A stretch of DNA of 64,000 nt from Sugiyamaella lignohabitans (lineage: Eukaryota; Ascomycota; Dipodascomycetes; Dipodascales; Trichomonascaceae), in the NCBI RefSeq assembly GCF_001640025.1, contig NC_031672.1, positions 496,001 through 560,000 of the forward strand. Direction: 5' to 3'. The notes beneath the pieces are model-generated. The model was not told where the DNA came from and searched no databases. It saw nothing but the letters and a program-made list of their open reading frames with translations. This document shows, one piece after another, positions 6,838-62,692 of the stretch; the first letter of the stretch is position 1; each line of letters opens with the position of its first letter. A program made the position numbers and the translations under genes.

Positions 6838-7258
6838 TGCTATATCTAATGGGTTCTATGTGTTCAGTGAATGAAATGAAGAAATAAATACAACTCAACG
6901 ACCCATATGATGTTATATACTCCCCCTACGTGGGGGTTGAGCGTGCATACCCCACTCGACAAGGTATTTCCACCGATAATCCGCGCCGTGCATTTACACC
7001 GGGGAGATGCAAGTCACTGGTGAAGCGGAGTAAAAGACGGCGAAATCCACTCAACTGATTTCTCATAACTAAAACTTAGAAGTTGCTCGTGAGAATATCT
7101 TATTTGCCTCCGGCGGCTGGGGCTCTGCCCCAGACCCCGTGGCTCCTCTCGCTTCGCTCGAGTCGGTATATAATAGATGATTATATCTTATTCCATGCTG
7201 CTTTGAGTAAATAATGTGGAATTCACAGATACGGACTATAAAATTGGATTTGAATGAC
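6838..7258. promoter_or_regulatory. Lactonase upstream region with GC-palindrome
   Basis: 420 bp between the lactonase start and the dioxygenase stop. It contains ATACTCCCCC at 6917-6926 running into the near-palindrome CCCCCTACGTGGGGG (6922-6936), about 80-100 bp upstream of the lactonase ATG, so it is a plausible transcription-factor site. The same 10-mer is found upstream of the dioxygenase at 8631-8640. A single-arm hairpin element lies at 7106-7165, about 95 bp beyond the dioxygenase stop. Confidence 0.45.
7106..7165 (-). repeat. GC-rich hairpin element, single B arm
   Basis: Starts GCCTCCGGCGGCTGGGGC, folds through CTGGGGC-TCT-GCCCCAG, then ends in the B-type tail CTCCTCTCGCTTCGCTCGAG. 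It is a single arm downstream of the dioxygenase stop codon and the most isolated copy at the left end of the window. Confidence 0.9.
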
Positions 7259-8443
7259 TTAGACTGACAGACCAAGAGCCTCATGACGAGACTTGGAGTT
7301 AGGATCATAGTATGGTTTCTCACCGAGACCACTCACTCGAGTTCCATGACGAGGCTCTGAGTAATCGCCAACTGCATTGTGGATAGTGATACGGTTATCC
7401 CAGAGAGCAGAGGTTCCAAGACCCTCCTTGGTTGGTTGCCATCTGAATCTAACCTGGATATCAAGGTTCTTCTCAATGATATCATAAAGCAAATTAAGAA
7501 TTGCTGCCGACTCTGCTGGTTCTAAACCGACAATTCGGACAGTATGAGCACGGTTGACCCAAACCGCTTTCCATCCGGTTGCTGGATGTGTTCTTACAAT
7601 AGGGTGCTCAGTTTCAATGTACTTTGGACCACCGAATTGATCGTTCTTGTCCAAGTACGCATGTGCTGATCTGTGGATAGCAGTCTTTCCTTCAAGGAAT
7701 TTCTGGAGAGCAGGAGACAGCTTGTCATAAAGTCCATATCCAGACGACCAAGATGTGTCGCCTCCAACAGCAGGAATTTCATCATTGTGAAGATGTGTAA
7801 TAGCAGCACTTTGAATCAAATGATCCAAATCTGTGTGCCATCCGGATGCACCACCTGGCTTTCTGAAGTTGACTACTCGGCCTTCAAAGACCTGGAAATC
7901 CGGCCAGATAACTGAAACACCCGGAAGTCCTGGAACATGTGGCACTTGAGGGTGGATCTCGACGTCTCCAAAATACTTTCCGATTTCAAGCTGCTTCTGA
8001 GGAGCCAAATCTTGGTCACGGAAGAACACTACAGATCTCTCGGCAATGAGTAATGCCAGCTCATCCAATTGTGTTTGGTTCAAGTCAGCCAATTGTAAAC
8101 CGACAATCTCAGTACCAATGTGCTTCGTCAAGTTAATCACTTCTTTAGCAGCACCGAACAAAGCCTTCTTTTCTGGATCAGCTTTAGCACCTTTCTCAAC
8201 ATACTCGCTGCGACTACTGTGAATTTTGGCTGCTTCGTCTAGCCAGATTGGAATATGAGATGGACGCTCTGGATAACCACGAGAAAGATCAACTCCATGT
8301 CGTTCAAATCGCTTACGCGAGTGTTCCGGTAGCTTGTCAATATAATTGGCAGCAAAACCTTCTTTCAACACAGCATTGTTAGTCTTGATGGATTGGTTAC
8401 GAATACCTTCCTCAATAATCTCGACAGCAGTTGGTGGGGACAT
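7259..8443 (-). CDS. TauD/TfdA-family 2-oxoglutarate/Fe(II) dioxygenase (Jlp1-like)
   Basis: 394 residues, close to S. cerevisiae Jlp1 (about 412), an Fe(II)/2-oxoglutarate sulfonate dioxygenase that releases sulfite from taurine-like compounds. The facial triad is visible: H-T-D in GWHTDLDHL (near residues 202-204) and the distal His in LWDNRITIHNAVGDY (near 355). The 2-oxoglutarate-binding Arg follows in PRHGTRVSGLGEKP. The N-terminal part carries the usual TauD fungal extension and VGLQLADLNQTQLDELALLIAERSVVFFRDQ. The real substrate could be a sulfonate, a sulfate ester or another acid. The gene faces the MFS permease at 9286 across an 840-bp shared upstream region, a common arrangement for uptake plus catabolism. 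The ATG at 8443 is the only good start. Confidence 0.85.
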   Translation of the reverse strand: MSPPTAVEIIEEGIRNQSIKTNNAVLKEGFAANYIDKLPEHSRKRFERHGVDLSRGYPERPSHIPIWLDEAAKIHSSRSEYVEKGAKADPEKKALFGAAKEVINLTKHIGTEIVGLQLADLNQTQLDELALLIAERSVVFFRDQDLAPQKQLEIGKYFGDVEIHPQVPHVPGLPGVSVIWPDFQVFEGRVVNFRKPGGASGWHTDLDHLIQSAAITHLHNDEIPAVGGDTSWSSGYGLYDKLSPALQKFLEGKTAIHRSAHAYLDKNDQFGGPKYIETEHPIVRTHPATGWKAVWVNRAHTVRIVGLEPAESAAILNLLYDIIEKNLDIQVRFRWQPTKEGLGTSALWDNRITIHNAVGDYSEPRHGTRVSGLGEKPYYDPNSKSRHEALGLSV

Positions 8444-9285
8444 TGTTATTGACTATTAATTTGATAGAACACAATTAACAATTGAGTATCTCAGCGGTGA
8501 ATAATAGAACCAACCTCTACTCCGTTATCCGTATTTATAGCAAATCTAATTATGCCCATTCTAGTTACAGTATTTGTAATAGTATTTTTCTCAACCCGTC
8601 AAAAAATCAACTGAGCGGCCGTAGATAAGCATACTCCCCCGCATTTGCGGGATATGAGTGGTCTATTGCGTGATATCATGCATTGATAAACCTTGACGTG
8701 CATATCCTCATGCATTAGATGGTCCCTGCTTTTACGCCGGAATTACTGTTATTGACACGCAACTACCGGACCTTTGCACTCAAGATGATATTTGAACAGA
8801 CAATTGACAAGAAAAGTTTCACAAGCAGCAGCTTTCTTTTGTCATTCGACAGTGGCATTTACTGCACTCCGGAATATTTCTCGGCAGACTGGACCGAATT
8901 ATGAATCAGAGATGTCAATCACGTCAGATTGCAATCGGAATCACCATCTGAAATAGGAAACTCTCCGTACATGTAACGCTGATATTATAATTGAAATATG
9001 CTTAAGCTTTAGCGATTGTTCCTGACACAATATGATGAGACCCAATTCCGCCGGGTTTATAAACCTTTTAAGTAAGTGTCCGTCGACTTCAACGCAGCCA
9101 GATCTACAAGTCTGATGTAGAAAAACGTGACAATGCCATAATCACCATGCTGGTTGCCTTCTCTATCATACGCTGCTGGTTCGATTGGATTTATATGCTA
9201 GGTTCCATTTTTTGAAAATGTAGACATAAGGTTCTCAAAGTCCTGCCTACCTAAAGGCTATAAAACAACGAGAAATCCGTCACAG
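8444..9285. promoter_or_regulatory. Divergent promoter between dioxygenase and permease
   Basis: 842 bp with no gene. It holds ATACTCCCCC (8631-8640) overlapping a perfect inverted repeat CCCGCA-TT-TGCGGG (8638-8651), about 190 bp upstream of the dioxygenase ATG. The 10-mer is shared with the lactonase promoter. A short frame at 8719-8904 has no recognisable features and I do not call it. A TATA-like TTTATAAACC near 9056 may serve the permease. Confidence 0.45.
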
Positions 9286-10869: not shown

Positions 10870-10954
10870 TGCGCTCTTTGTTTTATGTAATGGTTTTATG
10901 ATGAAATAAATAATATTAGTTGCAACAGACCTCTATCTCTTGGAGCGGGAATGT

Positions 10955-11091
10955 GCCTCCGGCGGGCTGGGGCTCCGCCCCAGACCCCGCTGCTCCTCTC
11001 GCTACGCTCGAGTCGTCACGTGTACGGTCCTGGCAAACTCCTGCGAAGCAGGAGCCACGGGGTCTGGGGCAGAGCCCCAGCCGCCGGAGGC
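10955..11091 (-). repeat. GC-rich paired-hairpin element, full copy
   Basis: 137 bp with the B arm on the left and the A arm inverted on the right, beginning GCCTCCGGCG and ending GCCGGAGGC. The left arm carries one extra G (GGCGGGCTGG). Flanks next to the ends are partly complementary (GGGAATGT left, ACATCCCC right). It lies 85 bp after the permease stop codon. Confidence 0.95.
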
Positions 11092-11237
11092 ACATCCCCA
11101 CCCTGGGTGTTGTGATAAAATAAAGCCATGTCCAATCTAACGGCGGAATCAGGTACCGTTGTTGGGATCTACGTTTGATTATCCTGTTGTAGGTAGTGTT
11201 CTGCGGGGTACGGCTCAGGAACCACCAATCTCGCAGA

Positions 11238-11244
11238 TATAAAA
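11238..11244 (+). promoter_or_regulatory. TATA box of the pirin gene
   Basis: TATAAAA, 48 bp upstream of the pirin ATG at 11292. It is the only strong TATA-like site in the gap after the hairpin element. Confidence 0.5.
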
Positions 11245-11291
11245 GCATTGTTGATGCCCACCGTTTAGTTCGGTGAGATTAGAGAGAAAAA

Positions 11292-22700: not shown

Positions 22701-25523
22701 TCCTTTTGAGAGAAAGTACGGACACCCAAGCTCTCGACACCTTCGGCAATGATGTTGTTCTGGGACATAAGACCAGTTCCACGAGTCCAGCCAATAACAG
22801 CACCACAGATAGTGAGGTAAGAGCTCCAAGACTCAGAGTACCATCTGTTGAACAAGGTCTCAAGAGACAACTTGGACTCGGAGTAAAGACCATCAGCACC
22901 AAATGTACCGTGATTAGGAGACATGGGCAGAATGACTTGAGCAGGACGGGTCTCAAAACCGTTGGCAGCCTTGTGAGACTTGATGCTACCCAGAAGACGG
23001 AGCAAGTTGGTCAACATGAGTCTGTGAGCAAGCTCAGACTTGGAGTCAATACCATCAAGTTCAATACCGTTCTCAGGAATAGCAGCAAATGGAATGACGA
23101 AATCCAAATCCCATCCAAGACCGCCCTTCTTGGTATCGTTGTAGATGTAATCAACCAAAGCACGGACATCAGATGAAGAGGCTTGGTTGAAAGGAACAAC
23201 AATAAGAGTGGAACCAGAAGCACCGAACTTGGTGTAGATGCTTTGGTAGTACTCGGTAACTTCACGCGAGTATCTTGAAGTTGTAACAACGACCTTGGCA
23301 CCACCAGAAATCAAACCTTGGAGAATATCAGCACCAATGGATCCAGCACCGGCACCAGTGATAAGAACGTTCTTGTTGGCGAAAGTAAGACCATCACGAG
23401 CAGCGACCTCCAAACCGTCAAGATAAGTGGCAGACAAGTCACGGTCGAAATCCCAGATCTCACCAGACTTCTTCTTGAGGTGCAAGAAAGGAATGGTCTC
23501 TTCTCTCATGTGCTTAGCGGAAACAGTATCAAGAGCCTTCTTGGGAGAAGACTCGGCCTCGACAGTATCAATGGCCTTGATAAGATCAGCGTAAAGAGCA
23601 TCGAGCTTGAGCTTACCAGAACTCTTGCCATCAGCAGCAGACGAGATTCTCTTGTAAATCTTGGCCAACTCAGCACGAGTGTGGGAACCGGCAGCAGGGT
23701 CCTTGGTCATCTCACCACCAGCAGCCATATCCTGAACATATTGTTCAAGCTTACGAACAGCAGGACGAGGAACCTCGGCATAGGAAATGTTACCGTTAGA
23801 ATCGACAGTAGTCTTAGGACCAGTGGGGTAGTTGACATCCTTGTAAACAGGGTCGGCATCAACAGCCTCCTTACAGTTTTGCAACAGCTTTTGAGCCAAT
23901 TCTTGTGCAAGCTCATAAGTAGCACCACGGTCAGTAGGAACGTGGTCGATGTAGTATTGCATGAAATCAATCAAAGTAGGGTTGGTTCTGTTCATAATAC
24001 TGATACAACGAGAAACAATCTCACGGTCCACATTAGATAATCTGCCAAAAATGATATCGTAGAACATAGTCAGACAGTCTTGACGAGCCCAGTTCCAGTA
24101 TGAGTCGTAAACACGAGCCTTTAATGGCGAGAAAACAGGTTTAATACCAGAAGCATAGAAATCACCGTGCTCACTGTACCACAAGTCGAGTTCTTGTTGA
24201 AGAAGGGCAGTGGCCTCCTTTTGAGCGACAAATGCCTTGTCACCATCACGAAGATCCACCTTGAGGTATCTAGCGAAAAGCTCCAATTGTTGTTGAACAA
24301 GGTATCTTTGATCTTTAGTAAGCTCTTCAAAGGCAGCAGAGTCAATAACAGCACCACCAGCACCGCCAGCAGCAGCTCCACCAGCAGCACTGGCAGAACT
24401 GAGGTTGACTCCGGCAATAGAAGCGTATTTAGTAGTAACATCGTCCAAGAAAGCCTTGGCAGCAGCCTCGTCACCCAAACGGTTCTTAGGTTCCAGAGTA
24501 ATGGCGACAAGGAAAACACTGTCTTGACGGCCAGGACCCAAACCCCATCTGGTGTTCAAGTATTTACGAGCAGATGTGATGTTGAAACCACCAGGCATCT
24601 TTGACGAAATAAGACGAGAAACCAAAGAAGATGATTGTTTACCCAATTGGCCACTGAATGAGTCTTGGAATTGCTCAGCAAGTTCACCAAGAGGAGTCTC
24701 CTCTGGCTTCTCAGGAGTGGAACCGAACTCCTTACCTAAATCACCGAGAATTTCGTTCTGAACAGTGGATTTACCACCAACAAGATCCTTAACAGCCTTT
24801 GAAAGAGGAACTTGGTCCAAAGTCTTCTTAATCTTTTGGGCAACCAGAGCGTGCAACACCTCAACAGCCTTGACTGGAGTATCTTCAACACTGGCAGCAG
24901 GACCGGCAGCGGCAGCAGCAGCAACTGGAGCAGCAGCAACGGCAGCCGGGGCAGCAGCAGCTGGAGCATCACCAGAAGCAGGAGTAGACTCAGACTCAGC
25001 TGGCTCGACGGGGTCGGGAGTGTAGTAGATCTCCTTAGTGTCCTTGGAGTAGCACAAAACCTGTCTTTGAAGAGACAAAGCTGCATCATATGACTCGTAC
25101 TTGGACTTCAAGGTTCTAGTAGCCATTCCAGCAAGAGTGGGAGAAGGTCCAATCTCCACAATTCTCTCGGCATTGTACTGACTGAGGATAACATCTTGGG
25201 TCTCAATCCTAGAAGTATGGTTAGCATCGTTGATCCGGGTGGTGGGAGGGACTTGCCTCCGGCGGCTGGGGCTCTGCCCCAGACCCCGTGGCTCCTGCTT
25301 CGCAGGAGATTGCTAGGATCGTTGAGATTGAGTTCAAGTCAAGTTCTCGAGCAAATGGATCAAATAGATCAAATGAATAGCACTGTTTATGGAGGAACAA
25401 TTCACGGTCTACGATCCTCAATAGATATATCAAAACTTACCATCTAACGGGAGATGCAAATTGATAAGCCAAAAGCTCTGTCAGAAGGACGTGAGCCAGT
25501 TCTTGTTCGACTTCAGGACGCAT
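19730..25523 (-). CDS. FAS2: Fatty acid synthase subunit alpha
   Basis: Two exons: 25441-25523 (28 codons, [16 protein letters not shown] start) and 19730-25208. The intron is 25209-25440 (232 nt; GTAAGT donor, TGCTAAC branch, CTAG acceptor), splitting a Trp codon exactly where the family reads VRWIETQDV. The product is 1853 residues (S. cerevisiae 1887). Order: N-terminal MPT fragment ([13 protein letters not shown]), Ala/Pro linker, acyl carrier domain with the phosphopantetheine Ser in GGKSTVQNE (about 175), ketoreductase with [13 protein letters not shown], ketosynthase with Cys in GACATA (about 1268) and [10 protein letters not shown], and a C-terminal phosphopantetheine transferase with IGVDVQSL. 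It forms the alpha6beta6 cytosolic synthase with Fas1. Codon bias is very strong, which creates long antisense frames. The intron carries a hairpin element arm. Confidence 0.97.
25255..25308 (+). repeat. Hairpin element A arm inside the FAS2 intron
   Basis: A complete A arm from GCCTCCGGCGG to GCAGGAG, within the intron 25209-25440. The bases just after it (ATTGCTAGGATCGTTGAG) match the spacer of full elements, so this looks like a full copy that lost its B arm. Confidence 0.92.
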
Positions 25524-35430: not shown

Positions 35431-37330
35431 CCTAAACCAACTATCAAATCAGCCAATTATCACCCCGTTCTCTCCACGATATCAGCGCCACGAAACAATC
35501 AGCAAATCAATTCACAAACTCTGCTCTCTCCAACAATTCAAAACACGTTCAACTCGCAATAAACAATTCTTTACTGCTTCTCCCTCAACCGCTGTTGACT
35601 AACAATCCACTTCTCTTCGTGATCTGCATCTTCGACTTGCTGCTCGACATGCCCCTTCACCAACCCGCACGGCTGAACACACGGGTTCAGGGGGAACGGG
35701 GGTCTGCCTCCGGCGGCTGGGGCTCTGCCCCAGACCCCGTGGCTCCTGCTTCGCAGGAGACTGCTAGGACCGTCGACGAAAACGACTCGAGCGTAGCGAG
35801 AGGAGCAGCGGGGTCTGGGGCGGAGCCCCAGCCGCCGGAGGCACCCACCCCCGCCGACGTCGGATCCGAGTAACACAGTTTATCCGCGCCAGGTTGGAGG
35901 AGTAGGGTCCGATGCAGAGCGGAAGACGGTTTTAGACCCTGCAGGCGGAGCTGTTGAGGGGTAGCAGATCGCGGAAGGTGGTGTGGTTTGTGTGTTGACG
36001 TAATCAAATTGGGAGCTGAGTCGCACAGTGCCAAGTCCGTGTCCGACAATAAGCGCAAAATAAGCTTTCAAACGTTGATATTCCCCCGCGAAGACACTGG
36101 GTTTGACTCGTGGATTTGGCGGGGTTCGTCATCCTGATGTAGCAATATATCCGAATAAACTTCGGATCTTCACGCGACGTCTCAAAAAATAAAAAAATAA
36201 AAAAATTACCCCGCTTTTGACTAAACTGAAAACCCCCTGTAGATTGATTGTGTGCTGCTATCGTCCACGGCACTAACCCTGTTGGATATCCCCTGTTTAT
36301 AGACTAGACTTTGTTGGATTTGGTCCTGGATCACATGTATGTTTTTTTTATTTCTCATAGTGGAGCTCCTCTTCCTGGTCAAGACTCACTCGGACAAACA
36401 TCTGAACATATCCGCAGCTGGACATCTCAGCAGCTGAGCATCTGAGTATGCATACTTGTGTTATATATGGAGGTCGAGGCACAGTCAGATCGCTGTGTTT
36501 CAGCCAGACACGGTCGCTCGCTTGCCAGCTTACCGCAGACTTTGACAGGTGCCAATCAGAATCCATTGATTTCTTGCATCGTGCTTTTTGGCGCCTTTTA
36601 GCCAGCATATTTGCTGGGTAGATCGACAGTCAATGCGAGAAATGAAAGCTTTTTTGGGCACTCAGATCAACTTCGTCTCCAGATCAAGGGGTAATCTTTT
36701 TGCCGCCAATATGGTCAGTCCACCTCTGTTTAGGCAGCTGTTTAGTGTGTGTGGTTCGCTCTATTTTTTTTTGACGCTAGTAAAGGTCAAGTTGACGGGG
36801 GTTACAACATCTCCGACTGTTAGGAACGGAGGAGGATAGCCGTTGTGAGTGGATCGCGATCCACCGTTGGTTTCACGTGGATCAACTGGTTACTAAACGT
36901 TTCACGCAATTGCTCGCTGCTCAATTTTCGATCTTGAAACCAGAAGGATTTTTTTTGGTACTCAATTGTTTTTTTTTAATTTTTTTTTTCAATTTTTTAT
37001 TCAATATTCATCATAATTCTGATCATCTCTCAACCTATGATTATGTCTATGACTATAACTGTGTTCTGGTTGATTCACCTAGCATGTTGCCCCCACGGAG
37101 ATGCCCCTCATTATGCACAATCTCCATACATATCAAAAAGTAACTATATGCTAGTTGCCGAAATCGGAAATTGAGATGCATCTCCATCAAACGTTAACAG
37201 ATGAGAGATTTTCAGGTTCTAGGTCTGGTTATGACCCTTTTTATTTAAATTACGCTTATTTTCTGCTAACCATTCAGCGTCCAAGCTTCACTTTCTCAAA
37301 AAAAAGATTATTAGGTGAAAAATATATACC
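35431..37330. other. Intergenic region with a full hairpin element
   Basis: About 1.9 kb between the UBX5 start and an MFS permease. A full element lies at 35706-35842. Poly-A and poly-T tracts occur near 36185-36207 and 36950-36990, and STRE-like CCCC/GGGG tracts near 37090-37110. Several frames of 80-120 codons exist only because the GC element is open in all frames, or through AT-rich runs; none shows a family motif. Confidence 0.5.
35706..35842 (+). repeat. GC-rich paired-hairpin element, full copy
   Basis: 137 bp, A arm left and B arm right, with spacer ACTGCTAGGACCGTCGACG. Left flank is GGGGGTCT, right flank ACCCACCCCC. It lies about 275 bp upstream of the UBX5 ATG. Confidence 0.95.
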
Positions 37331-38893: not shown

Positions 38894-39039
38894 GCCTCCG
38901 GCGGCTGGGGCTCCGCCCCAGACCCTGGTTGCTCCTCTCGCTGCGCTCGAGTCGTTACTTGGAGGTCCCCACCGACTCCGCAATCTCCTGCGAAGCAGGA
39001 GCAACCAGGGTCTGGGGCGGAGCCCCAGCCGCCGGAGGC
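38894..39039 (-). repeat. GC-rich paired-hairpin element, full copy (longest)
   Basis: 146 bp, B arm left and A arm right, with a longer and different spacer. Both arms carry the same variant CCCTGGTTGCTCC in place of the usual CCCCGTGGCTCC, so the arms have changed together. Left flank GGGGTGT-like, right flank ACACCCC. It lies between a permease stop and the TATA box of the next gene. Confidence 0.95.
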
Positions 39040-39203: not shown

Positions 39204-40402
39204 ATGAAGGTCGTCACTTGTTCAGGGAGTCCATATGAAGTGAGTTTCGATTCCGTCTGACTGTAGACTTAAATGGAAAGAATGTGAGAATGAGGAAGAT
39301 GCTAACGGGCAGATTGGGTACACGCATGGCTCGCAGGCCAAGGAGCAGGTGCTCAAGTCGAAGCAGTTCTACAAGGACTTTTTCAAGGAAACGGCAGGTA
39401 TAGGCTGGGATAAGGTTCAGGAGATTGGTCTGTCATTTCTTCCGATAGTCGAGAAGAACTGGGACTTTATTTTAGACGAAATCAAGGGCGTGGCAGACGG
39501 GTCGGGCCTCGAACTGGCGGACATTTTGGCTCTCAATGTTCGCACGGAAATCGCGTTTGGTCTCAAACATGATAATGAGAGTGATGGATGCACTACTATG
39601 TTCTGGAAGTCCGATAAGACCAGCTTCCTGAGCCAGAATTGGGACGTAAGTAGGGAACAGTCGGTTGACTGAGGTCTGAACCGGGTCTGATTGAACTCAA
39701 TTAGACCCGGACCGAGACCTGGACAGTGTACTAACTGGTCGGTGGTAGTGGAGAGAGGCTCAGAAGGATGCTTTGGTGGCTCTAATAGTCAATCCAGACT
39801 CTGGACCGAGGTATAGAATCATGACAGAGGGCGGAATAGTGGGCAAAATCGGGTTGAATGAATATGGCGTTGGCTGTTGTTTAAATGCGATAATGGCTAA
39901 AGGTGTCGACAAGAACAAGATTCCTATTCATTTGGCTCTACGGCTGGTTGTGTCGTCCAAATCAGCTGAAGAGGCCATTGAAACTCTTACAAAAACAGGA
40001 TGTGCTTCAGCAGGACATATTTTTGTCGCTGACTCGACTACTGCTCGTGGTCTAGAGTTCTCTGCTTTCGATTATAAAGCTCTGGATTTGGATGGCAAGA
40101 ACCATCTGTTCCATACTAACCACTACCTGGCACCTCATAATGCCGAGGAAGGGCAAACTGAGTGGGTATCTGATTCTCCGTTCAGACTGTCTCGGATCGA
40201 AGAGCTGTCGAAGTCGCTGAAACCGTCTATAGAAGGTATTCAGGAGGCTTTCAAAGACGAGAAGAACAGTCCTGGATCCATCTGTAGAATCGGTAGCTCG
40301 GTTACTCTGTTCAATATCGTCATGGATCTGTCTGCCAAAACTGCTGCTGTGACTATAGGAAGGCCAATTGATCCTGATAGCAAGCTGACCTTCAGCTTTT
40401 AA
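39204..40402 (+). CDS. Peptidase C45 / acyl-CoA:6-APA acyltransferase-like Ntn hydrolase
   Basis: 340 residues in three exons: 39204-39239, 39313-39645, 39749-40402. Introns are 39240-39312 (73 nt; GTGAGT donor, GCTAAC branch) and 39646-39748 (103 nt; GTAAGT, TACTAAC, GTAG). The joined start SGSPYEIGYTHGSQAKEQV matches the family opening (G-x-P-x-E-I-G-x-x-H-G). The predicted nucleophile is Cys105 in SDGCTTMF, next to NVRTEIAF. After autoproteolysis this Cys would become the N-terminal residue of the beta chain. Penicillium isopenicillin N acyltransferase, the best-known member, cleaves at the same place. Yeast homologues have no assigned substrate, and an amidase or acyltransferase role is inferred. 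No C-terminal ARL/SKL peroxisome signal is seen (ends LTFSF). Intron 2 holds a strong foldback. Confidence 0.85.
39672..39720. repeat. 49-bp foldback inside acyltransferase intron 2
   Basis: Inner stem CCGGGTCTGATTGA pairs with TCAATTAGACCCGG (one G-T mismatch), and outer AGGTCT pairs with AGACCT. It sits between the donor (26 nt away) and the last 28 nt holding the TACTAAC branch point. It is unrelated in sequence to the GC hairpin family. Confidence 0.75.
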
Positions 40403-40657: not shown

Positions 40658-41100
40658 TTACTGAGGAACTGGCTGTCTCTCTGCCATGCTCTGTTTGATC
40701 AGGACAAGCCTCTTCTCAACCTCTTTTAACGTGTGATTGACAGCCACCAGTCTCTTCTGCGTCGTGTACATCTTCAAAACAGTCTCTTTAAGATCCGGCG
40801 GCGGGTTTGATTCGAAAGTCTCGAGTTCTGGAGACGGGTTAGTAGGGGTTGGTAGTGATGCCTCCGGCGGCTGGGGCGCTGCCCCAGACCCCGTGGCTCC
40901 TGCTTCGCAGGAGAGATATGGGTACGTGTGTACTTACTTTTTCTCAGAAACTCCAGCTGGGATAACAGCGCATCTTGCGACTCGTGAAGACTGTCCAGTC
41001 GCTGTGAAGCGGTCTCTAGCGCCGGCACCAGCAGCGACCGAACTGCAAACTCCACCGACTCCTCGTTCGACGGACCACCCGCTGTATCGCCTGACGCCAT
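40658..41100 (-). CDS. Snapin-like small coiled-coil protein (BLOC-1 type)
   Basis: A 110-residue protein in two exons: 40938-41100 and 40658-40827. The intron is 40828-40937 (110 nt; GTAAGT donor, TACTAAC branch, CCAG acceptor) and contains a hairpin element A arm. The N-terminus ends in a coiled coil (LLVPALETASQRLDSLHESQ, DALLSQLEFLRK). The second exon gives LKMYTTQKRLVAVNHTLKEV then EKRLVLIKQSM, resembling the Snapin C-terminal segment (VNNTL-x4-ERL). Snapin-type proteins (Snn1 in S. cerevisiae) are subunits of the BLOC-1 complex on endosomes. The assignment rests on that short block and overall size, so another small coiled-coil subunit is possible. Without splicing the gene looks like two unrelated short frames. 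Confidence 0.6.
40860..40913 (+). repeat. Hairpin element A arm inside the Snapin-like gene intron
   Basis: 54-bp A arm, with the loop of the first hairpin changed (CTGGGGC-GCT-GCCCCAG, stem intact). It lies 32 nt from the acceptor and 24 nt from the donor of a 110-nt intron. No B arm or spacer is left. Confidence 0.93.
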
Positions 41101-41276: not shown

Positions 41277-41413
41277 GCCTCCGGCGGCTGGGGCTCTGCC
41301 CCAGACCCCGTGGCTCCTGCTTCGCAGGAGATAGCTGGGACCGTCGACGGAACCGACTCGAGCGCAGCGAGAGGAGCAGCGGGGTCTGGGGCGGAGCCCC
41401 AGCCGCCGGAGGC
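41277..41413 (+). repeat. GC-rich paired-hairpin element, full copy
   Basis: 137 bp, A arm left, spacer ATAGCTGGGACCGTCGACGG, B arm right. The flanks are complementary for 8 of 9 bases (GGGAGGACT left, AGTCCCCCC right). It ends 19 bp from the MRF1 stop codon, so it is probably in that gene's 3' UTR or terminator region. Confidence 0.95.
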
Positions 41414-42985: not shown

Positions 42986-43122
42986 GCCTCCGGCGGCTGG
43001 GGCTCTGCCCCAGACCCCGTGGCTCCTGCTTCGCAGGAGTTGGCTAGGACTGTCGGCGGAACCGACTCGAGCGCAGCGAGAGGAGCCACGGGGTCTGGGG
43101 CAGAGCCCCAGCCGCCGGAGGC
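42986..43122 (+). repeat. GC-rich paired-hairpin element, full copy, in MRF1-ATG16 promoter
   Basis: 137 bp, A arm left, B arm right. It occupies almost half of the 309-bp gap between two divergent ATGs (42908 and 43218), so both promoters must work around or through it. Confidence 0.95.
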
Positions 43123-43217: not shown

Positions 43218-43953
43218 ATGGTTTCGCAGACCAGCTGGCGAGAGACATTGGCCAGTGAGCTAGCGAAGCGCGACCGGCGTGAGAAGCAGTTTGACGAGTT
43301 TATTGTGGCGTGTAAGTGGCGGCAGGTGGCGGGAATGGGTGATTTTGTGACTAACGGAGATGGCAGTTGAACAGGCGGCCAAACGGGCTGTGGAGTCGGA
43401 AGCGGCCGTTTTAGGGACCAGTGGCAAATCTGGCGGGTCGAGTGGTGGTCCGGTAGATACAGAAAGAGAACTGGCTCAATTATATACACGGCTGTCAATA
43501 GCAGAAGAGAAAGCCAAGAATCTGGAGACCCTGAAGAGCACGTATGAGAAGACCACGAGCCAGCTGACGCGGCGGCTGACGGAAGAACAGGCCAAAGCAC
43601 AAAACTACCGGGACGAGGTGGACCTCAAAACGACGTCGATGCAGCATCTCCAGGACGAGATGCTGGCGCTCCAGATCCAGCTCAACGTCATCGAAGACAA
43701 CATGAAACAGGTCCAAAAAGAAAACGAGGCACTCGTCGAGCGCTGGATGGCCAAAGTGGCTGGCGAGGCCGAGAAACTCAACGATGCCAACGCTTTCATC
43801 GAAAGGTACAGTTTCACGGGTTGGCGGTCTGTGCCTCCGGCGGCTGGGGCTCCGCCCCAGACCCCGTGGCTCCTGCTTCGCAGGAGTTTGCGTGGGGAAA
43901 TGGTTGCTAACAGGAACAGTCTTAAACGGATTAAACCTCCCTCCGAAGGTTAG
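43218..43953 (+). CDS. ATG16: Atg16, autophagy coiled-coil scaffold
   Basis: 190 residues in three exons: 43218-43311, 43367-43805 and 43914-43953. Intron 1 (43312-43366, 55 nt) has GTAAGT, GACTAAC and GCAG. Intron 2 (43806-43913, 108 nt) has an unusual GTACAG donor and TGCTAACAG, and contains a hairpin element A arm. S. cerevisiae Atg16 is 150 residues. The N-terminal helix (SWRETLASELAKRDRREKQF, DEFIVA) is the Atg5-binding motif with a W-x4-L pattern. Residues about 70-175 form a coiled coil whose end ENEALVERWMAKVAGEAEKL is the best family block. With Atg12-Atg5, Atg16 forms the E3-like complex that directs Atg8 lipidation at the autophagosome precursor. The last exon encodes only 12 residues plus stop. 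Confidence 0.85.
43833..43886 (+). repeat. Hairpin element A arm inside ATG16 intron 2
   Basis: 54-bp A arm, 27 nt from the donor and 27 nt from the acceptor of a 108-nt intron. An inverted arm follows at 43976-44031, beyond the last exon. Confidence 0.93.
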
Positions 43954-43975
43954 AATATACAGGGCACGCTCAACG

Positions 43976-44031
43976 CTCTCTCGCGAAGCGAGAGCCACGG
44001 GGTCTGGGGCGGAGCCCCAGCCGCCGGAGGC
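43976..44031 (+). repeat. Hairpin element single inverted arm, 3' of ATG16
   Basis: Ends in GCCGGAGGC. The inner hairpin is CTCTCGC-GAA-GCGAGAG, a perfect 7-bp stem that differs from both standard A and B tips. It lies 22 bp after the ATG16 stop and 54 bp from the DOT1 stop (convergent genes). Confidence 0.9.
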
Positions 44032-45918: not shown

Positions 45919-46580
45919 GATGCTATCTCTCCGGATCAACTTCGCGAACCTGCTCCTTCCTCTTTAAGCGTACCGCGCAAAATGTGCCACTTATACAAGG
46001 GAGCCGGGTGTGCCTCCGGCGGCTGGGGCTCCGCCCCAGACCCCGTGGCTCCTGCTTCGCAGGAGACTGCTGGGACCGTCTACGCCCGACTCGAGCGCAG
46101 CGAGAGGAGCAGCGGGGTCTGGGGCGGAGCCCCAGCCGCCGGAGGCACATCCGGCCACCCCCTGTTATGTCACGTGATACATGCCCTAACCTGGAATTTT
46201 CACGGGTGGAGGCGAGGAGGATTGGATTCAGAGAGTTTCGGGGACTTGAGTGTGGGCTGACTGGCTGATACTGACGTTTTGCGATTGGGTTTGCCGTTTT
46301 GGAGCTTGTGTGTTTGTTGTGTTTTGAGTGGTTGATTTGTTGTTTTAGTTCTGCACCCCTGGAACTGGCGGATCTGTGGAAGTGTTCTCAGGACCGTAGG
46401 CTGAAGTGGTTGACGAGCCGTTTAAAAATTGGTCTGATTGCGGTCTGTTTCGTGGCTGTTTGTGAGTGTGCGGTTTTTATGGACTGTACAGTTTGTGAAC
46501 GGACAAGAGAGAGTTGAAATTTTTGGGGGCAATTTTTTTTTGAGTTTGGCAGCAAGTGTCTGGTGTACAGGTGGTTCAAC
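45919..46580. promoter_or_regulatory. Divergent DOT1-GPI10 region with a full hairpin element
   Basis: 660 bp between two divergent ATGs. The left part holds a full hairpin element (46012-46146) close to the DOT1 start. A CACGTG-containing GTCACGTGATAC lies near 46169. The right part is T-rich before the GPI10 ATG. No gene is seen. Confidence 0.5.
46012..46146 (+). repeat. GC-rich paired-hairpin element, full copy, DOT1 promoter
   Basis: 135 bp, A arm left, B arm right, short spacer. Flanks are complementary in 8 of 9 bases (GCCGGGTGT left; right flank reads GCCGGATGT on the reverse strand). It lies 94 bp upstream of the DOT1 ATG. Confidence 0.95.
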
Positions 46581-48332
46581 ATGCAGTACTCGTCGCGAAG
46601 ATGGATTCACTTGCCATTGTACGCAATTCCATTGTTAGTGGCTTTTCGAGTGTTTAATGCACTGTCTATTAAGACGTTTTTCCAGCCAGATGAATACTGG
46701 CAGTCGCTGGAACCGGCTCATATCGCTGTTTATGGCTACGGGTATTTGACTTGGGAATGGCGTGAACATCTCCGAAGTGCCGCTCATCCGCTTTTATTTG
46801 CGGGTGTCTATAAACTGGCCAATTGGCTCGATATTGACCCTGTTTTGGGCCCAAAACTTTTTCAGGGTGTTGTTGCGGCAATTGGCGATATTTATACCTA
46901 TGAACTGGCAATTCAGGCTACTAATACTCCTTCAGCTTCAGTAGCCAAACTAGCTCTATTTGCCAATTTAGCGTCTGCTTTCAATTGGTTCTGTTTACCA
47001 AGAACGTTTTCAAACTCGCTAGAAACTGTTCTTACAACTATAGCACTGTCGTATTGGCCCTGGAAATCGTTTACTAGTGGATCTCCTATCATCTGGCCAC
47101 GGTTCGTGCTGTCTCTGGCCATTGCCTCGATTGCATGTATATTCCGACCCACAAATGCTCTGTTGTGGTTGTTTCTTGGAATTCATTTTCTATGGACCTC
47201 CAGCTCGTCTCGTCAGACCACTGTCAAAATCATTGCCGCGACCTCTGCTGTTCTGACGCTCTCTCTGTGTTTCAATGGCCTGGTAGATTATGTATATTTT
47301 GGCGAGCCCGTGTTTCCATTGCTCAATTTTATCAAATTCAATATCGTAGAATCGCTGTCGCAGTTCTACGGAGTCAATCAATGGCATTATTACCTCAGTC
47401 AGGGACTACCTCTATTGACAATGGCATACTTACCACTAGTTCTGACCGGGCTCTATCAATACAAAAGCACTATTATCGTGCAATTAATCCTGTTTATCAT
47501 TGGTTCGTACTCGCTTCTCGCTCATAAAGAAGTGCGATTCATCTTCCCGCTCATACCACTTTTGCATCTCCTGGTAGCGGCTGCTTTAGATCGCATCCGA
47601 CGACGAGCCATATTCCCCCTTCCATATCTCGTGGCCATATTACTAGCAATCAACGTCCCAGTGGCCACATACTTCTCACTATACCATCAACGAGGAGTCA
47701 TCGACGTGATCTCGTACCTCCGCCATGAACCAACCGTCTCAAGTGTCGGATTCCTCATGCCCTGTCATTCGACCCCCTGGCAGAGCCACATCCACCGACC
47801 CGATATCACTGCCTGGTTCCTCACCTGTGAACCACCCCTCGGCCTTACCGCCAAACAACAAAAAAGCTATCTCGACATCGCCGACCAGTTCTACGCCGAC
47901 CCGACCACCTTCCTCGACACGCACTTCCCGCCTCTCGACGACGCGCCAACCGACACCCCACCTTCCCACTCCGACTACGACTGGCCATCTCACCTCGTTT
48001 TCTTCGCGGCTCTCGAACCGCTCGCAAGCCGGTACCTGTCACCAGTATACCAAGAGGTAAGTTCTTTTTTCCCGGGTGCTGGCGCCTCTGGCGGCTGGGG
48101 CTCCGCCCCAGACCCCGCTGCTCCTCTCGCTGCGCTCGAGTCGTTTTCGTCGACGGTCCTAGCCATCTCCTGCGAAGCAGGAGCTACGGGGTCTGGGGCG
48201 GAGCCCCAGCCGCCGGAGGCACCGTGGCCCCCTGACACGGTCTAACAGGAGCAGGAAACACGGTTTTTTAATAGCCACTTCCACGACGACGCGCGTCGCA
48301 GGGGTGACGTGATTGTATATAGAAAAGTATAG
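46581..48332 (+). CDS. GPI10: Gpi10, GPI alpha-1,2-mannosyltransferase III
   Basis: 519 residues in two exons: 46581-48056 and 48249-48332. The intron 48057-48248 (192 nt; GTAAGT donor, TCTAACAG branch-acceptor) carries a full hairpin element. It is a GT22/Alg9-family mannosyltransferase: the luminal FQPDEYWQSLEPAH block (near 34) is the family's acidic catalytic motif, followed by YGYLTWEW and RSAAHPLLFAG, then 8-10 membrane helices and the KEVRFIFPLIPLLHL block. The last exon restores the conserved end RFFNSHFHDDARRRGDVIV. The enzyme adds the third mannose of the GPI precursor in the ER. The 3' quarter of exon 1 is much GC-richer than the start. It is convergent with UNG1, stops 8 bp apart. 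Confidence 0.9.
48084..48220 (-). repeat. GC-rich paired-hairpin element, full copy, inside GPI10 intron
   Basis: 137 bp, B arm left and A arm right, 27 nt after the donor and 28 nt before the end of the 192-nt intron. The first base block reads GCCTCTGGCGG (one change). Confidence 0.95.
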
Positions 48333-48340
48333 GAGCGAGT

Positions 48341-49511: not shown

Positions 49512-50077
49512 CCACCGGCAAGTCTTTGAGTCTGCTCACTGACCCGCTTCTCGTCTCTCAACAACCGCGACTCTCATGCGCGTATTCGCGTCGTCCTGTA
49601 TGCATCTCTCAATTGCATCTTGCAGCGTGCCTGCACAACCGTTGGGCCGCACATCTCCCCCCTGACACTCCTCTACCCGGGTCTCTCTCCTCTCACTGTC
49701 GGCAATTTTCACGGAGACAATCCGTGGTTGGCCTGGCCTGCCTCCGGCGGCTGGGCTCCGCCCAGACCCGTAGCTCGAACTTCGCTCGAGTTGCTAGGAC
49801 CGTCTAGTATAGTCTGCTTGTCTGTGAGGGTGGTACACTGAGTCTCGCCCTTCACCAGTAGCCTCTAGCAGTAATCCCAGCTTGACCATTCAAATATCCT
49901 CTTTCGTTCTTGTCTATATAAAATAATCTCTCTAGTTAAACAAGCGGAAAACAAATAATTAAATTCGTACTCAGAACTTAACCCCTGAATCTCCTATACA
50001 ATATACATTTTACATGTACAGAACATAAATTAAATATATATACACGATAGTCATAAGTCATTAAAATGCAAGATATT
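49512..50077. other. Intergenic region upstream of UNG1 with a degenerate hairpin element
   Basis: About 570 bp. It holds an element remnant at 49740-49790 and AT-rich sequence after 49900. No gene is recognisable. Confidence 0.5.
49740..49790 (+). repeat. Hairpin element A arm, shortened variant
   Basis: Starts GCCTCCGGCGGCTGGGCTCC. The first stem has lost one base on each side (CTGGGC-TCC-GCCCAG), so it still pairs. The second tip is CTCGAACTTCGCTCGAG instead of CTCCTGCTTCGCAGGAG and also still pairs. The A-type spacer TTGCTAGGACCGTC follows it. Confidence 0.88.
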
Positions 50078-51671: not shown

Positions 51672-51725
51672 GCCTCCGGCGGCTGGGGCTCTGCCCCAGA
51701 CCCCGTGGCTCCTGCTTCGCAGGAG
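51672..51725 (+). repeat. Hairpin element single A arm
   Basis: 54-bp A arm with no spacer after it, followed by a G-rich stretch. It lies 131 bp upstream of the MSS2 ATG. Confidence 0.93.
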
Positions 51726-51779: not shown

Positions 51780-51913
51780 GCCTCCGGCGGCTGGGGCACT
51801 GCCCCAGACCCCGCTGTGCTCCGCTTCGCGGAGCGGCAGAGACCGTCGACGCACGACTCAAGCGCAGCGAGAGGAGCAGTGGGGTCTGGGGTGGAGCCCC
51901 AGCCGCCGGAGGC
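51780..51913 (+). repeat. GC-rich paired-hairpin element, full copy with recoded tip
   Basis: 134 bp. The A-arm tip reads GCTCCGC-TTC-GCGGAGC instead of CTCCTGC-TTC-GCAGGAG: both sides of the stem have changed and still pair. The first stem has loop TCT replaced by ACT. Right arm carries GGGGTGGAGCCCC. Confidence 0.95.
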
Positions 51914-51951: not shown

Positions 51952-52011
51952 CGACTCGAGCGTAGCGAGAGGAGCAGCGGGGTCTGGGGCGGAGCCCCAG
52001 CCGCCGGAGGC
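51952..52011 (+). repeat. Hairpin element single B arm (inverted)
   Basis: Reads CGACTCGAGCGTAGCGAGAG through GCCGGAGGC. It lies 38 bp after the previous full copy, making a small cluster of three. Confidence 0.93.
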
Positions 52012-52519: not shown

Positions 52520-52656
52520 GCCTCCGGCGGCTGGGGCGCTGCCCCAGACCCCGTGGCTCCTGCTTCGCAGGAGATTGCTGGGACCGTGGGCGGAACCGAC
52601 TCGAGCGTAGCGAGAGGAGCAGTGGGGTCTGGGGCGGAGCCCCAGCCGCCGGAGGC
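52520..52656 (+). repeat. GC-rich paired-hairpin element, full copy
   Basis: 137 bp, A arm left with loop CGCT-type change (GGGGCGCTGCCCC), B arm right. Preceded by a G-run (GGAGGGGGGGGAGGGG). Confidence 0.95.
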
Positions 52657-53289: not shown

Positions 53290-53426
53290 GCCTCCGGCGG
53301 CTGGGGCTCCGCCCCAGACCCCGTTGCTCCTGCTTCGCAGGAGATTGCTGGGACCGTCGACGGAACCGACTCGAGCGAAGCGAGAGGAGCAGCGGGGTCT
53401 GGGGCGGAGCCCCAGCCGCCGGAGGC
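53290..53426 (+). repeat. GC-rich paired-hairpin element, full copy
   Basis: 137 bp, A arm left, consensus spacer ATTGCTGGGACCGTCGACGG, B arm right. Close to a consensus for the family. Preceded by a long purine/G tract (53228-53283). Confidence 0.95.
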
Positions 53427-55698: not shown

Positions 55699-55758
55699 CG
55701 ACTCGAGCGAAGCGAGAGGAGCAGCGGGGTCTGGGGCGGAGCCCCAGCCGCCGGAGGC
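55699..55758 (+). repeat. Hairpin element single B arm (inverted)
   Basis: CGACTCGAGCGAAGCGAGAG to GCCGGAGGC. Followed by CCCAG-rich sequence. Confidence 0.93.
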
Positions 55759-56415
55759 ACACCTCCCATCCCAGCCCAGGCCCAGCCCAGCCCAGCAGCC
55801 AAAGTAAAATACCCAAACCCATAATATCAGGACAGCCCACCGTAGACCACCGAATACCAGCGCATACCCTAACATCCAACGCAGACATCCACACCAAACA
55901 CAAATTGCTACACCAACAACCACCCACCCACACAGACAATCACTGAATCCAGCGAGCCAGCCACAATCGGGGCCCACCACACCACCACCCACCCACAGTA
56001 AGTAAGTACTATTAAACCAACGAGGCCAAATCGAATATTTTCAGACACAGCGAGCGCGTTGGGCAGGACACAAGCGTATCTGGTGGTCGCACTCGGCTCG
56101 GCAGTTGCAAATAATTTACCACCGGAAAATATATTTCGGACGCGTTTGCACTCGATTTTCTTGATAACTTTGATTTATTGACACACGGGCGGATCCAGCA
56201 CACCCTAGAAACTGGCTATTTTCCGAGTTGGTTTGGTTTTTGGCTGTTGCTGGCACGATTCTTTTTTGTAGGTGACTCTGGCTACCATTACACACCAACT
56301 GTGGTTGTACCCCTGCTCGACAACTATTGACGGTTCTCAGTGGTTGGCGTCTCGAGGTTGGACTGGCAACCAGGGAACCGTGACTGGAACGGGATCAGTT
56401 GGCTGGGGGGCTTGT

Positions 56416-56475
56416 GCCTCCGGCGGCTGGGGCTCCGCCCCAGACCCCGCTGCTCCTCTCGCTTCGCTCGAGTCG
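56416..56475 (-). repeat. Hairpin element single B arm
   Basis: GCCTCCGGCGG through CTCCTCTCGCTTCGCTCGAG and TCG. It lies about 380 bp upstream of the SNF2 ATG. Confidence 0.93.
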
Positions 56476-56853
56476 GGCTTCGGGGTGCCCAGTTGAAGCT
56501 GATGGACCTTGTTCCCAGAACGTAACACCGGGCCAGCTGTCAATTGACGAGTTCGAAAAGGGAGAGATCGAAACGAGATGAGGCGAGGCAAGGAACTGGA
56601 GTTGGAGTTGGGATTTATACTAACAGGATCTAGAACAGGAACACTATCAGTGACGGTAGGGATAACACAGAAACTGACTGTAGCAGAGAGCACGACTCGA
56701 GGAGCCCGATTCCGTGGGAGTATATGAGACGTTGAAGCGACCGCGATCCCAGCAACGGACCCGTCAGAGCGACCTCGACCTCGACCGCGACTCTCGACCC
56801 ACCACCATCACCACCTCCTCGACAGCTGTCGGCACCGGACGAGCCAGGCAGCA

Positions 56854-59800
56854 ATGAACTCGCAACCAGGCCCCGGCACGCCCATCTCGTTCATACCCAA
56901 CTACGGGGGCGTGCCCAGGCAGCAGCAGCAGCAACAACAACAGACCATAGGCACGATGCCTCTGCCGACCAACAAAGAAGAACTGTCTCGACTGTTTAAC
57001 GTAAGTGTGCCCTGTGCCTCCGGCGGCTGGGGCTCCGCCCCAGACCCCCCGGCTCCTCTCGCTGCGCTCGAGTCGGCGCGTCGACTGTCCCAGCCATCTC
57101 CTGCGAAGCAGGAGCCACGGGGTCTGGGGCGGAGCCCCAGCCGCCGGAGGCATTGGCCCCACCGGTGACACCAGAACTAACGGATTTTTGCAGCGATGGC
57201 ACGAGCTGCGTGCTCAGCTCGGCGAGCATGCGCCGACGAACCCCGAGTTTCTCGAGATCTCGCGTGTTCTAAGGACCATCAGCCGCCAGCAGAAAATGCA
57301 ACAACAGCAGCAACAGCAGCAGCAGCAACAACAGGGGATCCAGCAACAGCAAATGCCCATGGGCCAGCAGCAGCAGCAACAACGGCCTCAGAACTTCATG
57401 CGATCAAACGACCAGTCCACACCGCCGTTTCCCGGAACGCCAATGGGTAAGTGTTTTAGGGGAGGACATGCCTCCGGCGGCTGGGGCTGTGCCCCAGACC
57501 CCGTGGCTCCTGCTTCGCAGGAGATGACTGGGCCGTCGACGGAACCGACTCGAGCGCAGCGAGAGGAGCCAGGGGGTCTGGGGCGCAGCCCCAGCCGCCG
57601 GAGGCAGCGTGGGAGTAGAGAAGCGAAGAACTAACAGCGGTAGCAGGACCTCAAGTGCCGAATACGGGAAGAGGAGGGCCACAGACGCTGCTTCAGACGC
57701 CGGCAGCAGGTGCTGGGATGGGCAGCGGGCCCGGTGCGGGCCTGGGACAGGGTCAGGGACCACAGGGGCCGATGAGACAGCAGCCGCCAATGCCCAGTTT
57801 GGGACCGGACTCACCGTTTAATCAGGAGCAGATGATGCTGCTCAGGAACCAGATGATTGCGTACCGTGCTTTGAGCAAGAACGCGCCTATTGCTCAGGCG
57901 ATGCAGGCCGTTCAGCAGGCGCTGGCCAGTAATATTAGGCTCCAGCTGCCCGGCCAGCAGCCACAACAGCAACAGCAACAACAGACACAACAGTCCCAGC
58001 AACCACAACAACAGCAGCCTCAGCCACAGCAACAGCCTCAACAACAACAGCAGCCACAGGCTCAGTTACAGGCGCAATTGGGTCCAGGAGCAGCAGCTCA
58101 GGGCAGTCCGAATGCGGCGGTTTTGAATCACCAACGACAACCGTCGGTACCAGTACCGGACGAGTTTCAGAACTCGCCAGGCCGAGGATTCCGAAAACCG
58201 GCTCCGAGTATGAGCCAGCGAAGTTTTAGCAGAGCTAGCAGCATTTCCAGCCCCGTGGCTACTCCTCAGACACCTGCTTCAGGTGCTGGAACGGGTCCAG
58301 CGACAGGAGGAACTGATCCGTTGTTAGGAGTTGGCGGCGTTTCCGGACAAGCAAGCGCGGGTCTGGGGAATACCCCGTCTCCTCAACCACCAATGCCTGT
58401 GAATTTACCACCTTCGGTTAAACTGTTTGGCGTTTCTTCGTATATCGACCCAAGATCACCTTCGTATTTGGCACAATCAGTGTCATTTGAAGATTATACG
58501 GCACGTCAACAGCAGCTATTTATTCCCACAATCATGCCAGTTGGGTTGGATGTCGTGGATATGAAATTGGAACGCGAACGTCGAGTCCAGCAAGCCATGC
58601 ATAACAGAATGGCATATTTAGAAGAACAGGAATCGGAAAGTAGCTCTGGTTTGAGCATAGACGAAAAAATAGAGCTCAAGTCGCTACGGCTCGCCAATTA
58701 TAACAAGGCTCTGCGAGGCGATATTCTGGCTAATGTGTACTATTTCAATATGGTGGCTCTGGATGAGTCCAATAAGGGTAGATATACCCGGATGAAGAAG
58801 CTCAGTTTGCAAGAAGCAATTGCTACCGAGCAGTTTACGTATCAACAGAGAGTGGAAAGACAACGTCGTGAAAACCAGAGGAAGATTGATAATATCCAAA
58901 GTACCGTTAAGCATGCAGTTGATGTGGCCAACTCGGTGACTCAGAAACGAAGCCGATTGTCAAGATTACAAAAATCGATAGTCAGTTTCCATGCTTATAC
59001 TGAAAAAGAAGAACAAAAGAGATTGGAAAGAACCGCTAAACAGAGATTGCAGGCCTTGCGAGCTAATGATGAAGAGGCATATATCAAACTGCTCGACCAG
59101 ACAAAAGATACTCGTATCACGCATTTGCTTCGACAAACAAACACATTTTTGCATTCACTTACAAAAGCGGTTGAATCTCAACAGCGAGAAAACAAGGGCT
59201 TAGCCACTCTTAATACAGAGCTTCCTGATATCCAAGAAGGCGACGAAGACAGTGAGGTACGTGATTACTATGCTGTTGCCCATAGAATAAAAGAAGAGAT
59301 TACCAAACAACCGAGTATTTTGGTGGGTGGAACGCTGAAAGAGTACCAACTCAAGGGTCTACAATGGATGGTATCTTTGTATAATAACAGTTTGAACGGA
59401 ATTCTCGCCGATGAAATGGGTCTTGGTAAGACCATTCAGTCGATCTCGCTGATTACCTATTTAATCGAGATGAAGCAGTTGGCAGGTCCATTTCTGGTTA
59501 TTGTACCCTTGTCAACACTGACCAACTGGAATCTGGAGTTTGAGAAATGGGCTCCCAGTGTTAAAAAAGTTGTATACAAAGGACCTCCAATGGCGAGAAA
59601 GGCTCAACAAGGAATTATTCGGTCGGGTGACTTCCAGGTTTTACTTACAACTTATGAGTATATTATCAAGGATCGACCTATTTTGAGTAGAATCAAATGG
59701 GCTCATATGATTATTGATGAAGGTCATCGAATGAAAAATACCCAATCCAAGCTGTCATTTACGCTTACGACATATTATTCCACGAGATACAGACTTATTT

Positions 59801-62487: not shown

Positions 62488-62555
62488 CCTGTTTCTCTCT
62501 ACTTTATTTGTAATGTAATATAACGACTTCACGATTCACGTCAGGGTGGGGGTCT

Positions 62556-62692
62556 GCCTCCGGCGGCTGGGGCTGCGCCCCAGACCCCGTGGCTCCTGCT
62601 TCGCAGGAGACTGCTGGGACTGTCGACAGAACCGACACGAGCGTAGCGAGAGGAGCCATGGGGTCTGGGGCTCTGCCCCAGCCGCCGGAGGC
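62556..62692 (+). repeat. GC-rich paired-hairpin element, full copy, 3' of SNF2
   Basis: 137 bp, A arm left and B arm right, 69 bp after the SNF2 stop. Flanks are complementary (GGGTCT left, AGACCC right). Confidence 0.95.

Follow-up and report, generated by a model that had tools for sequence, protein, structure and literature searches.

To our knowledge, doublets of the REPIN type have been described only from bacteria. REPINs and bacterial interspersed mosaic elements (BIMEs) of the RAYT or TnpA-REP systems are many short extragenic palindromes, either single or joined across a variable spacer in inverted doublets that fold to one hairpin, with a mismatched-stem variant among them (PMC3116915; PMC8266576), and repetitive extragenic palindromes (REPs) are described as being processed by Y1 enzymes (PMC8266576). 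The GC clusters of yeast mitochondria, such as GC42, are GC-rich hairpins with substitutions in their loops (PMC4478555), and introner elements are repeated families found in many introns. Here we describe a family of GC-rich hairpin arms, lone or in inverted pairs, from the nuclear genome of the yeast Sugiyamaella lignohabitans, starting from a stretch of 64,000 nucleotides (bases 496001-560000 of contig C1, NC_031672.1; hereafter the window). With a probability of roughly 0.5, we read it as a non-autonomous, REPIN-type family of mobile palindromes that probably shares ancestry with a bacterial repeat and is tolerated in introns as a hairpin.

The yeast family has many short palindromes, inverted doublets and a mismatched-stem variant in common with REPINs and BIMEs, but it is nuclear and intronic, has two to three hairpins per arm and comes with no detected Y1 enzyme. 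The GTAG-type tetranucleotide that lies 5′ of the REP palindrome is absent from that place here; in the common arm form CGGC precedes the first hairpin. Loop substitutions in GC-rich hairpins are shared with GC42, from which the family is set apart, by description, in being nuclear, longer and paired and in having no visible AG target duplication; identity with a mitochondrial GC cluster was ruled out by the surrounding nuclear genes and the lack of a recurrent duplication. Introner elements likewise populate many introns, but most sampled copies of the yeast family have no splice signals around them, the signals are not part of the repeat and at least one host intron position is old. An earlier note on this DNA, made from the letters alone, had proposed a poorly described nuclear family with a REP-like layout. 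Both the nuclear setting and the layout are borne out, whereas the Y1 or RAYT-type enzyme that it named among other candidates was not found; the link with introns and the exact matches in bacteria had escaped it. A search of the open-access literature, with most subscription papers outside its range, found no account of the yeast repeat, so that its novelty is unproven.

Abundance and structure

When up to three mismatches are allowed, the window contains 35 matches to the arm head, GCCTCCGGCGGCTGGGGC, against 0.04 expected and a maximum of one in 100 shuffles; a 36th arm, at 10955, has one extra G in its head. All 23 copies listed by the earlier note were recovered, as 26 arms in 13 inverted pairs and 10 other arms, with the arm ends that it gave (CTCCTGC-TTC-GCAGGAG for A and CTCCTCTCGCTNCGCTCGAG for B). 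Its count of 10 single arms stands, but those at 43833 and 43976-44031 face each other across unique DNA and make up an inverted pair that spans 199 bp, and the arm at 43976 contains a third inner hairpin (CTCTCGC-TTC-GCGAGAG). The genome-wide search that had been proposed reveals a family far larger than this: in the 15,932,016 bp of the four contigs (C1 itself is 5,930,846 bp), the 18-mer head at no more than one mismatch marks 3,248 + 3,263 = 6,511 arms, against none for the reversed control, and the A-type inner hairpin has 950 + 932 matches.

An arm has four constant parts: the head T-GCCTCCGGCGGC is followed by a tri-loop hairpin, as a rule TGGGGC-NNN-GCCCCA, and after a GACCC tail comes a second hairpin, of type CTCCTGC-TTC-GCAGGAG, GCTCGC-TTC-GCGAGC or CTCCGC-TTC-GCGGAG, or the B form with its TC/TC internal loop. 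In one subfamily the first stem is closed by C-G (CGGGC-NNN-GCCCG, GACCCG); arms of this kind also occur in tandem in one orientation at C1:215050-215420, with a period of about 75-88 bp and with their flanks copied too. The two tri-loop hairpins attributed to every arm are well predicted for the folded A arm (z −3.5) and weakly for the folded B arm (z −0.9), whose second hairpin is absent from the RNA minimum-energy fold. Three whole units, one of them folded on both strands, form a single long hairpin with z −11.2 to −11.5. The window gave no Rfam match at gathering score and no ARAGORN match, by which a tRNA-type short interspersed element (SINE) or a known Rfam RNA was ruled out.

Finer features were read from 271,069 sampled bases, comprising three long blocks and seven short ones (from eleven 3-kb loci around arms); the long blocks were also chosen partly for density, so that sample densities, such as the 4.5% occupied by best-hit element intervals, are not genome averages. 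In the sample, 48 inverted pairs were counted along with 79 arms outside such pairs (arms with insertions or deletions escape this count); the family thus parallels REPs and REPINs in combining high-copy short palindromes with inverted doublets. Plain inverted pairs account for 50 of the 129 sampled element clusters, and lone arms are more often B (61) than A (23). From 209 matches, 184 ungapped arms were kept (at most 8 mismatches of 28) and 25, some of them false, were dropped. Divergence from the consensus among those kept is 1.1% at 28 non-loop sites as against 18% at the three loop sites; positions 1-16 lay in the search pattern and are biased to conservation, and positions 22-32, outside the pattern, are about equally conserved. 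Covariation in stem 1 is not seen in the 15-nt form (177 sequences), where the stem hardly varies, and the 13-nt form (13 sequences) shows a weak signal at best. Within A/B units the two arms agree in linker class in 31 of 39 cases (18.5 after shuffling) and in the loop in 25 of 39 (19.4 after shuffling), which suggests that arms travel, or are corrected, as pairs.

Bacterial counterparts

The core pattern GCCTCCGGCGGCTGGGGC-NNN-GCCCCAGACCC was scanned across the bacteria and archaea of genome_contigs (257 billion bases). All 29 bases of the core (head, stem and GACCC tail) are matched exactly in four bacterial contigs, of 63-71% GC, from Solidesulfovibrio aerotolerans (a named strain) and from three metagenome-assembled genomes (MAGs) assigned to Desulfovibrionaceae, Desulfovibrio and Acetobacteraceae, whereas Markov models of order 1-4 built on the bacterial loci predict 0.0001-0.0003 matches. 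The match in the Acetobacteraceae MAG is an inverted pair of about 107 bp, and the two loops that are most frequent in the yeast, TCC and TCT, are both found in the bacteria. Copies inside spliced yeast genes rule out contamination of the assembly as the source of the match.

Further bacterial copies combine the same head with other stems, GACCC tails and inverted pairing (L053, L056 and L057; in L067 the stems are unlike). Among 61 heads in the loci gathered, 28 are followed directly by a hairpin of at least 6 bp, and four of these 28 (L086, L087, L098 and L100) carry another tail, alike among themselves; most loci were fetched by patterns that required T, head or tail, so that tail counts are no test. 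The yeast family fits this unnamed bacterial repeat, GCCTCCGGCGGC-hairpin-GACCC, of Desulfovibrionaceae, Acetobacteraceae and other bacteria, in its head, tri-loop stem, tail and inverted pairs and in having both T-A and C-G closed stems; it is unlike it in second hairpins, spacers and hosts, and most bacterial flanks have no clear 14-nt G-rich border. The literature search gave no account of the bacterial repeat either, and the letters of the head are absent from the REP papers searched for them. In six bacterial loci a long frame ends 2-62 nt before the repeat, a placing known from REPs and terminators (L052:4654, L058:1797, L059:733, L069:6715, L073:3831 and L074:3898), and in L051 and L053-L057 a simple frame caller places copies inside long frames.

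Borders and insertion sites

The left end of the arm is sharp. Of the 209 matches, which include a few false arms, 92% have T at −1, and in the same set a G-rich zone extends from −14 to −4 with an abrupt edge at −15. This zone flanks units on both sides in inverted orientation (40 units) and is seen in introns, where the sequence past the element is C-rich from +5 to +14 and then A-rich; eight short element-free introns show no obvious G-rich zone by eye. The 14-nt zone may belong to either the target or the element. No direct repeat recurs across 45 units at offsets 0-39 and k of 3-10, and the longest stretch common to both flanks has much the same length as in pairs made by shuffling (5.16 vs 5.09), so a target duplication is not detectable. 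Taken as inverted repeats, the flanks of one unit agree slightly more than shuffled pairs (p 0.005-0.035 when anchored, 0.09 when local). Pairing of the target with the element, in the manner of IS200/IS605 guides, was rejected: GGGGTCT, the flank complement of the arm-internal AGACCCC, is exact in 14 of 209 flanks and GGGGTGT is commoner (20), and the C-G subfamily, which has another linker, shows no matching flank change by eye.

Elements in introns

Genome-wide, GTAAGT stands 6-36 nt ahead of an exact arm 213 times, as against 21 for its reverse complement ACTTAC and 28 for GTAAGT at 37-67 nt, so that the excess stops at 36 nt. The order arm, CTAAC, CAG has 356 matches in the genome, some elements being counted twice. 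In the sample, strict splice signals (donor, CTAAC and YAG) surround 18 of the 129 element clusters, as against 20 of 1,589 positions drawn at random outside the elements, and when joined open frames of at least 90 nt are also required the figures are 14 of 129 vs 6 of 1,589. The introns that hold the 11 plain two-arm units measure 193-208 nt, with the donor 15-36 nt before the element. An independent scan for joined frames (at least 210 nt) gave 21 introns in the sample, 11 of them element-bearing (one, of 530 nt, doubtful), and one in reversed sequence. The predicted introns of the window take in three units and a lone arm. These counts suggest a few hundred intronic copies genome-wide and, because short element-free introns of the same donor type number 375 matches (some double-counted) vs 77 in the control, perhaps very roughly one third of such introns would carry an element. 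They imply hundreds of introns with one donor type, vs 5% of genes reported as split in the 16.0-Mb genome, on 4 chromosomes, of strain CBS10342 (PMC5499181), which suggests that introns of this genome are under-annotated.

Intronic units with one B arm have it first in the sense direction in 9 of 10 sampled cases and in 127 vs 58 genome-wide, an excess that is modest because lone B arms outnumber lone A arms; intergenic units are B-first in 7 of 7 cases where the nearest gene end is 5′ and in 5 of 12 where it is 3′. In the fold of one whole intron (z −10), CTAAC is unpaired and GTAAGT just partly paired at minimum energy, and such accessibility would fit tolerance of the element by splicing.

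Two genes bear on the age of these introns. In ADE3 the predicted splice is exact, the joined protein having no gap or extra residue at the junction when compared with 26 homologs (found among the best 120 hits listed, which favour full-length frames). All 16 of the homologs known only from metagenomes (jgi, lgn) run through the junction, including the closest, P0121 (90% identical), a pattern consistent with recent gain of the intron; the remaining 10 belong to annotated genomes and are uninformative on intron presence. The database protein for the GPI10-like gene (P0241) is its 554-aa frame without splicing. Of 41 hits aligned for this gene, P0242 and P0244-P0249 continue across the junction, and five distant metagenome frames (P0265, P0267, P0273, P0276 and P0278) part from the alignment exactly at that point, with V (GT). 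The alignment ends and P0241 suggest that the metagenome frames are unspliced, and the five frames ending at the junction would make the intron position old, the element having entered or re-entered it. A predicted intron without the element (C1:535646-535748, window 39646-39748) holds another palindrome, CCGGGTCT...AGACCCGG, possibly of a different intronic hairpin family.

Origin and spread

The main travelling unit would be the inverted pair of about 137 bp, with lone arms as a second form or as leftovers. Copies probably move as hairpin-forming single strands, a route suggested by the sharp left end, the failure to find a target duplication, the 14-nt G-rich border, the constrained stems with free loops and the doublet units. 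The copies gather in non-coding DNA, often in predicted introns, where a unit may fold to a hairpin of about 40 bp between the 5′ splice site and the branch site, so that the effective intron would stay at about 60 nt. Common ancestry of the yeast and bacterial families, via horizontal transfer, appears most likely because the order of head, hairpin and tail is common to both at 29 of 29 bases. We raise as a tentative possibility that a bacterial palindrome crossed to the yeast nucleus, multiplied to thousands of copies without Y1 and settled in a substantial part of the introns, as a parasite active in two domains via shared machinery. With an exact bacterial core in a nuclear family, the transfer of a 30-bp mobile palindrome between domains would become testable; such a family would suggest that hairpins of this kind can spread without RAYT, and the yeast genome would offer many natural experiments on the tolerance or acquisition of inserted hairpins by introns.

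Several results weigh against the REPIN-type reading. The Y1_Tnp family (PF01797) has no match genome-wide, while it matched 5 of 14 control genomes, all bacteria or archaea, so that the enzyme on which the bacterial REP model relies is lacking. Conservation is only a little higher in paired arms (0.25 mismatches of 28; 110 arms) than in single arms (0.42; 74 arms; p = 0.08), and self-comparison of the 271-kb sample for paralogous empty sites gave 11 repeats, none useful, with no empty site seen. The likeness to bacteria spans just 29-35 bases or so, with second hairpins and spacers differing, and most bacterial flanks lack a clear G-run border. The exact core has no match in the IMG/VR viral contigs; there, a pattern of head, GGGG...CCCC stem and tail finds 5 stretches, and a looser head-to-GACCCC pattern finds 30 vs 23 for a control with another tail, the two sets overlapping.

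As the earlier note had stated, no transposase is encoded in the window, at least among the 19 of its 34 open reading frames (at least 150 aa) scanned with Pfam; PF14214 (Helitron-type) has no match in the genome, but also none in the 14 control genomes. Reverse transcriptases are present (13 matches), and an RNA route of spread is possible. A long interspersed element (LINE) with an open reverse transcriptase frame lies at L045:5228-9929, with an equal reverse transcriptase score at two further places in the genome; it was rejected as a partner, its 3′ end being unlike the hairpins by eye.

Convergence, with selection favouring one DNA structure in the cores of both yeast and bacteria, seems rather unlikely. 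It would suit a likeness of just some 30 bases and the wide occurrence in GC-rich bacterial plasmids of the hairpin with GACCCC but without the head, the form that makes up most plasmid matches; yet base pairing in the hairpin leaves the 12-nt head and the GACCC tail unexplained, and from head to tail, stem and loop included, the copies at bacterial loci L052 and L054 are identical to the two most frequent loop variants of the yeast. A spread without any dedicated enzyme, in which template switching during replication or the repair of breaks makes the copies, is unlikely. Such copying, which would also perfect the stems, agrees with the lack of a candidate transposase in the window Pfam scan and the genome scan for Y1_Tnp, with the homogenised arms within units and with merged back-to-back arms at C1:221406-221487, but stem correction should remove the TC/TC mismatch that about 100 sampled B-form arms keep, and the exact left end, with its T at −1, speaks against it.

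It is improbable that insertion itself makes the introns, as introners do, even though the 11 two-arm units in strict introns are so uniform in length and donor distance, the genome-wide GTAAGT excess ends at 36 nt and the ADE3 intron is absent from P0121, the closest listed relative, and 15 further metagenome frames. The old position of the GPI10 intron opposes this, as do the placing of the splice signals outside the repeated core, where they vary from copy to copy, and the 111 of 129 sampled clusters that have no strict signals. Still a little less probable is a miniature inverted-repeat transposable element (MITE), the short relic of an unknown DNA transposon. The inverted arms, the length of about 137 bp, the high copy number and the lack of evident coding capacity are what such a relic would have, whereas no target site duplication recurs, partnerless arms are common in the sample and the G-rich border stands beside arms generally.

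Elements and introns of the window

Table 1. Hairpin elements of the window and the predicted introns that hold some of them (window coordinates)
Feature	Positions	Strand	Evidence
Single B arm	7106..7165	+	head match
Full unit, B (extra G in head) then inverted A	10955..11091	+	head match
Single A arm and part of central spacer	25255..25322	+	head match
Full unit, A then inverted B	35706..35842	+	head match; RNA fold z −11.2
Full unit, B then inverted A	38894..39039	+	head match
Predicted intron holding A arm 40860-40914	40828..40937	-	GTAAGT...CTAAC...CAG, joined open frames of at least 165 nt each side
Single A arm, in predicted intron	40860..40914	+	head match
Full unit, A then inverted B	41277..41413	+	head match
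Full unit, A then inverted B	42986..43122	+	head match
Inverted arm pair, unique DNA between (two single arms in the earlier note)	43833..44031	+	head match
Full unit, A then inverted B	46012..46146	+	head match
Predicted intron, 198 nt, GPI10-like mannosyltransferase gene, holding 48084-48220	48057..48254	+	splice signals; spliced tail matches homologs; some distant yeasts have an intron at this position
Full unit, B then inverted A, intronic (predicted)	48084..48220	+	head match, splice signals
Single arm, shorter stem TGGGC-TCC-GCCCA	49740..49790	+	head match
Single A arm	51672..51725	+	head match
Full unit, variant inner hairpin then inverted B	51780..51913	+	head match
Single B arm	51952..52011	-	head match
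Full unit, A then inverted B	52520..52656	+	head match
Full unit, A then inverted B	53290..53426	+	head match
Single B arm	55699..55758	-	head match
Single B arm	56416..56475	+	head match
Predicted intron, 193 nt, SNF2-like gene, holding 57016-57151	57001..57193	+	splice signals, joined frames, fold
Full unit, B then inverted A, intronic (predicted)	57016..57151	+	head match, splice signals
Second predicted intron of SNF2-like gene, 197 nt, holding 57470-57605	57447..57643	+	splice signals, joined frames
Full unit, A then inverted B, intronic (predicted)	57470..57605	+	head match, splice signals
Full unit, A then inverted B	62556..62692	+	head match

The nuclear genes recognised by the Pfam scan of the window's frames are RAD54-like, FAS2-like, DOT1, GPI10-like and SNF2-like; the DOT1 homolog that scores best among those with a species name belongs to Trichomonascus vanleenenianus and aligns to 54% of the query at 60% identity. 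Beyond the window, arm density on C1 is uneven: of the 10-kb stretches that make up 180-270 kb and 3.00-3.09 Mb, eighteen in all, 11 contain 6-17 arms each and 7 contain 0-5, and the outermost 10 kb at either end of the contig hold none. Tri-loop hairpins of another, AT-rich set, with the cores GGC-TTC-GCC and TTTTGC-TTC-GCAAAA, stand at both ends of C1 (L049:60-200 and the final 400 bases of L050), and their orientation at one end is opposite to that at the other.

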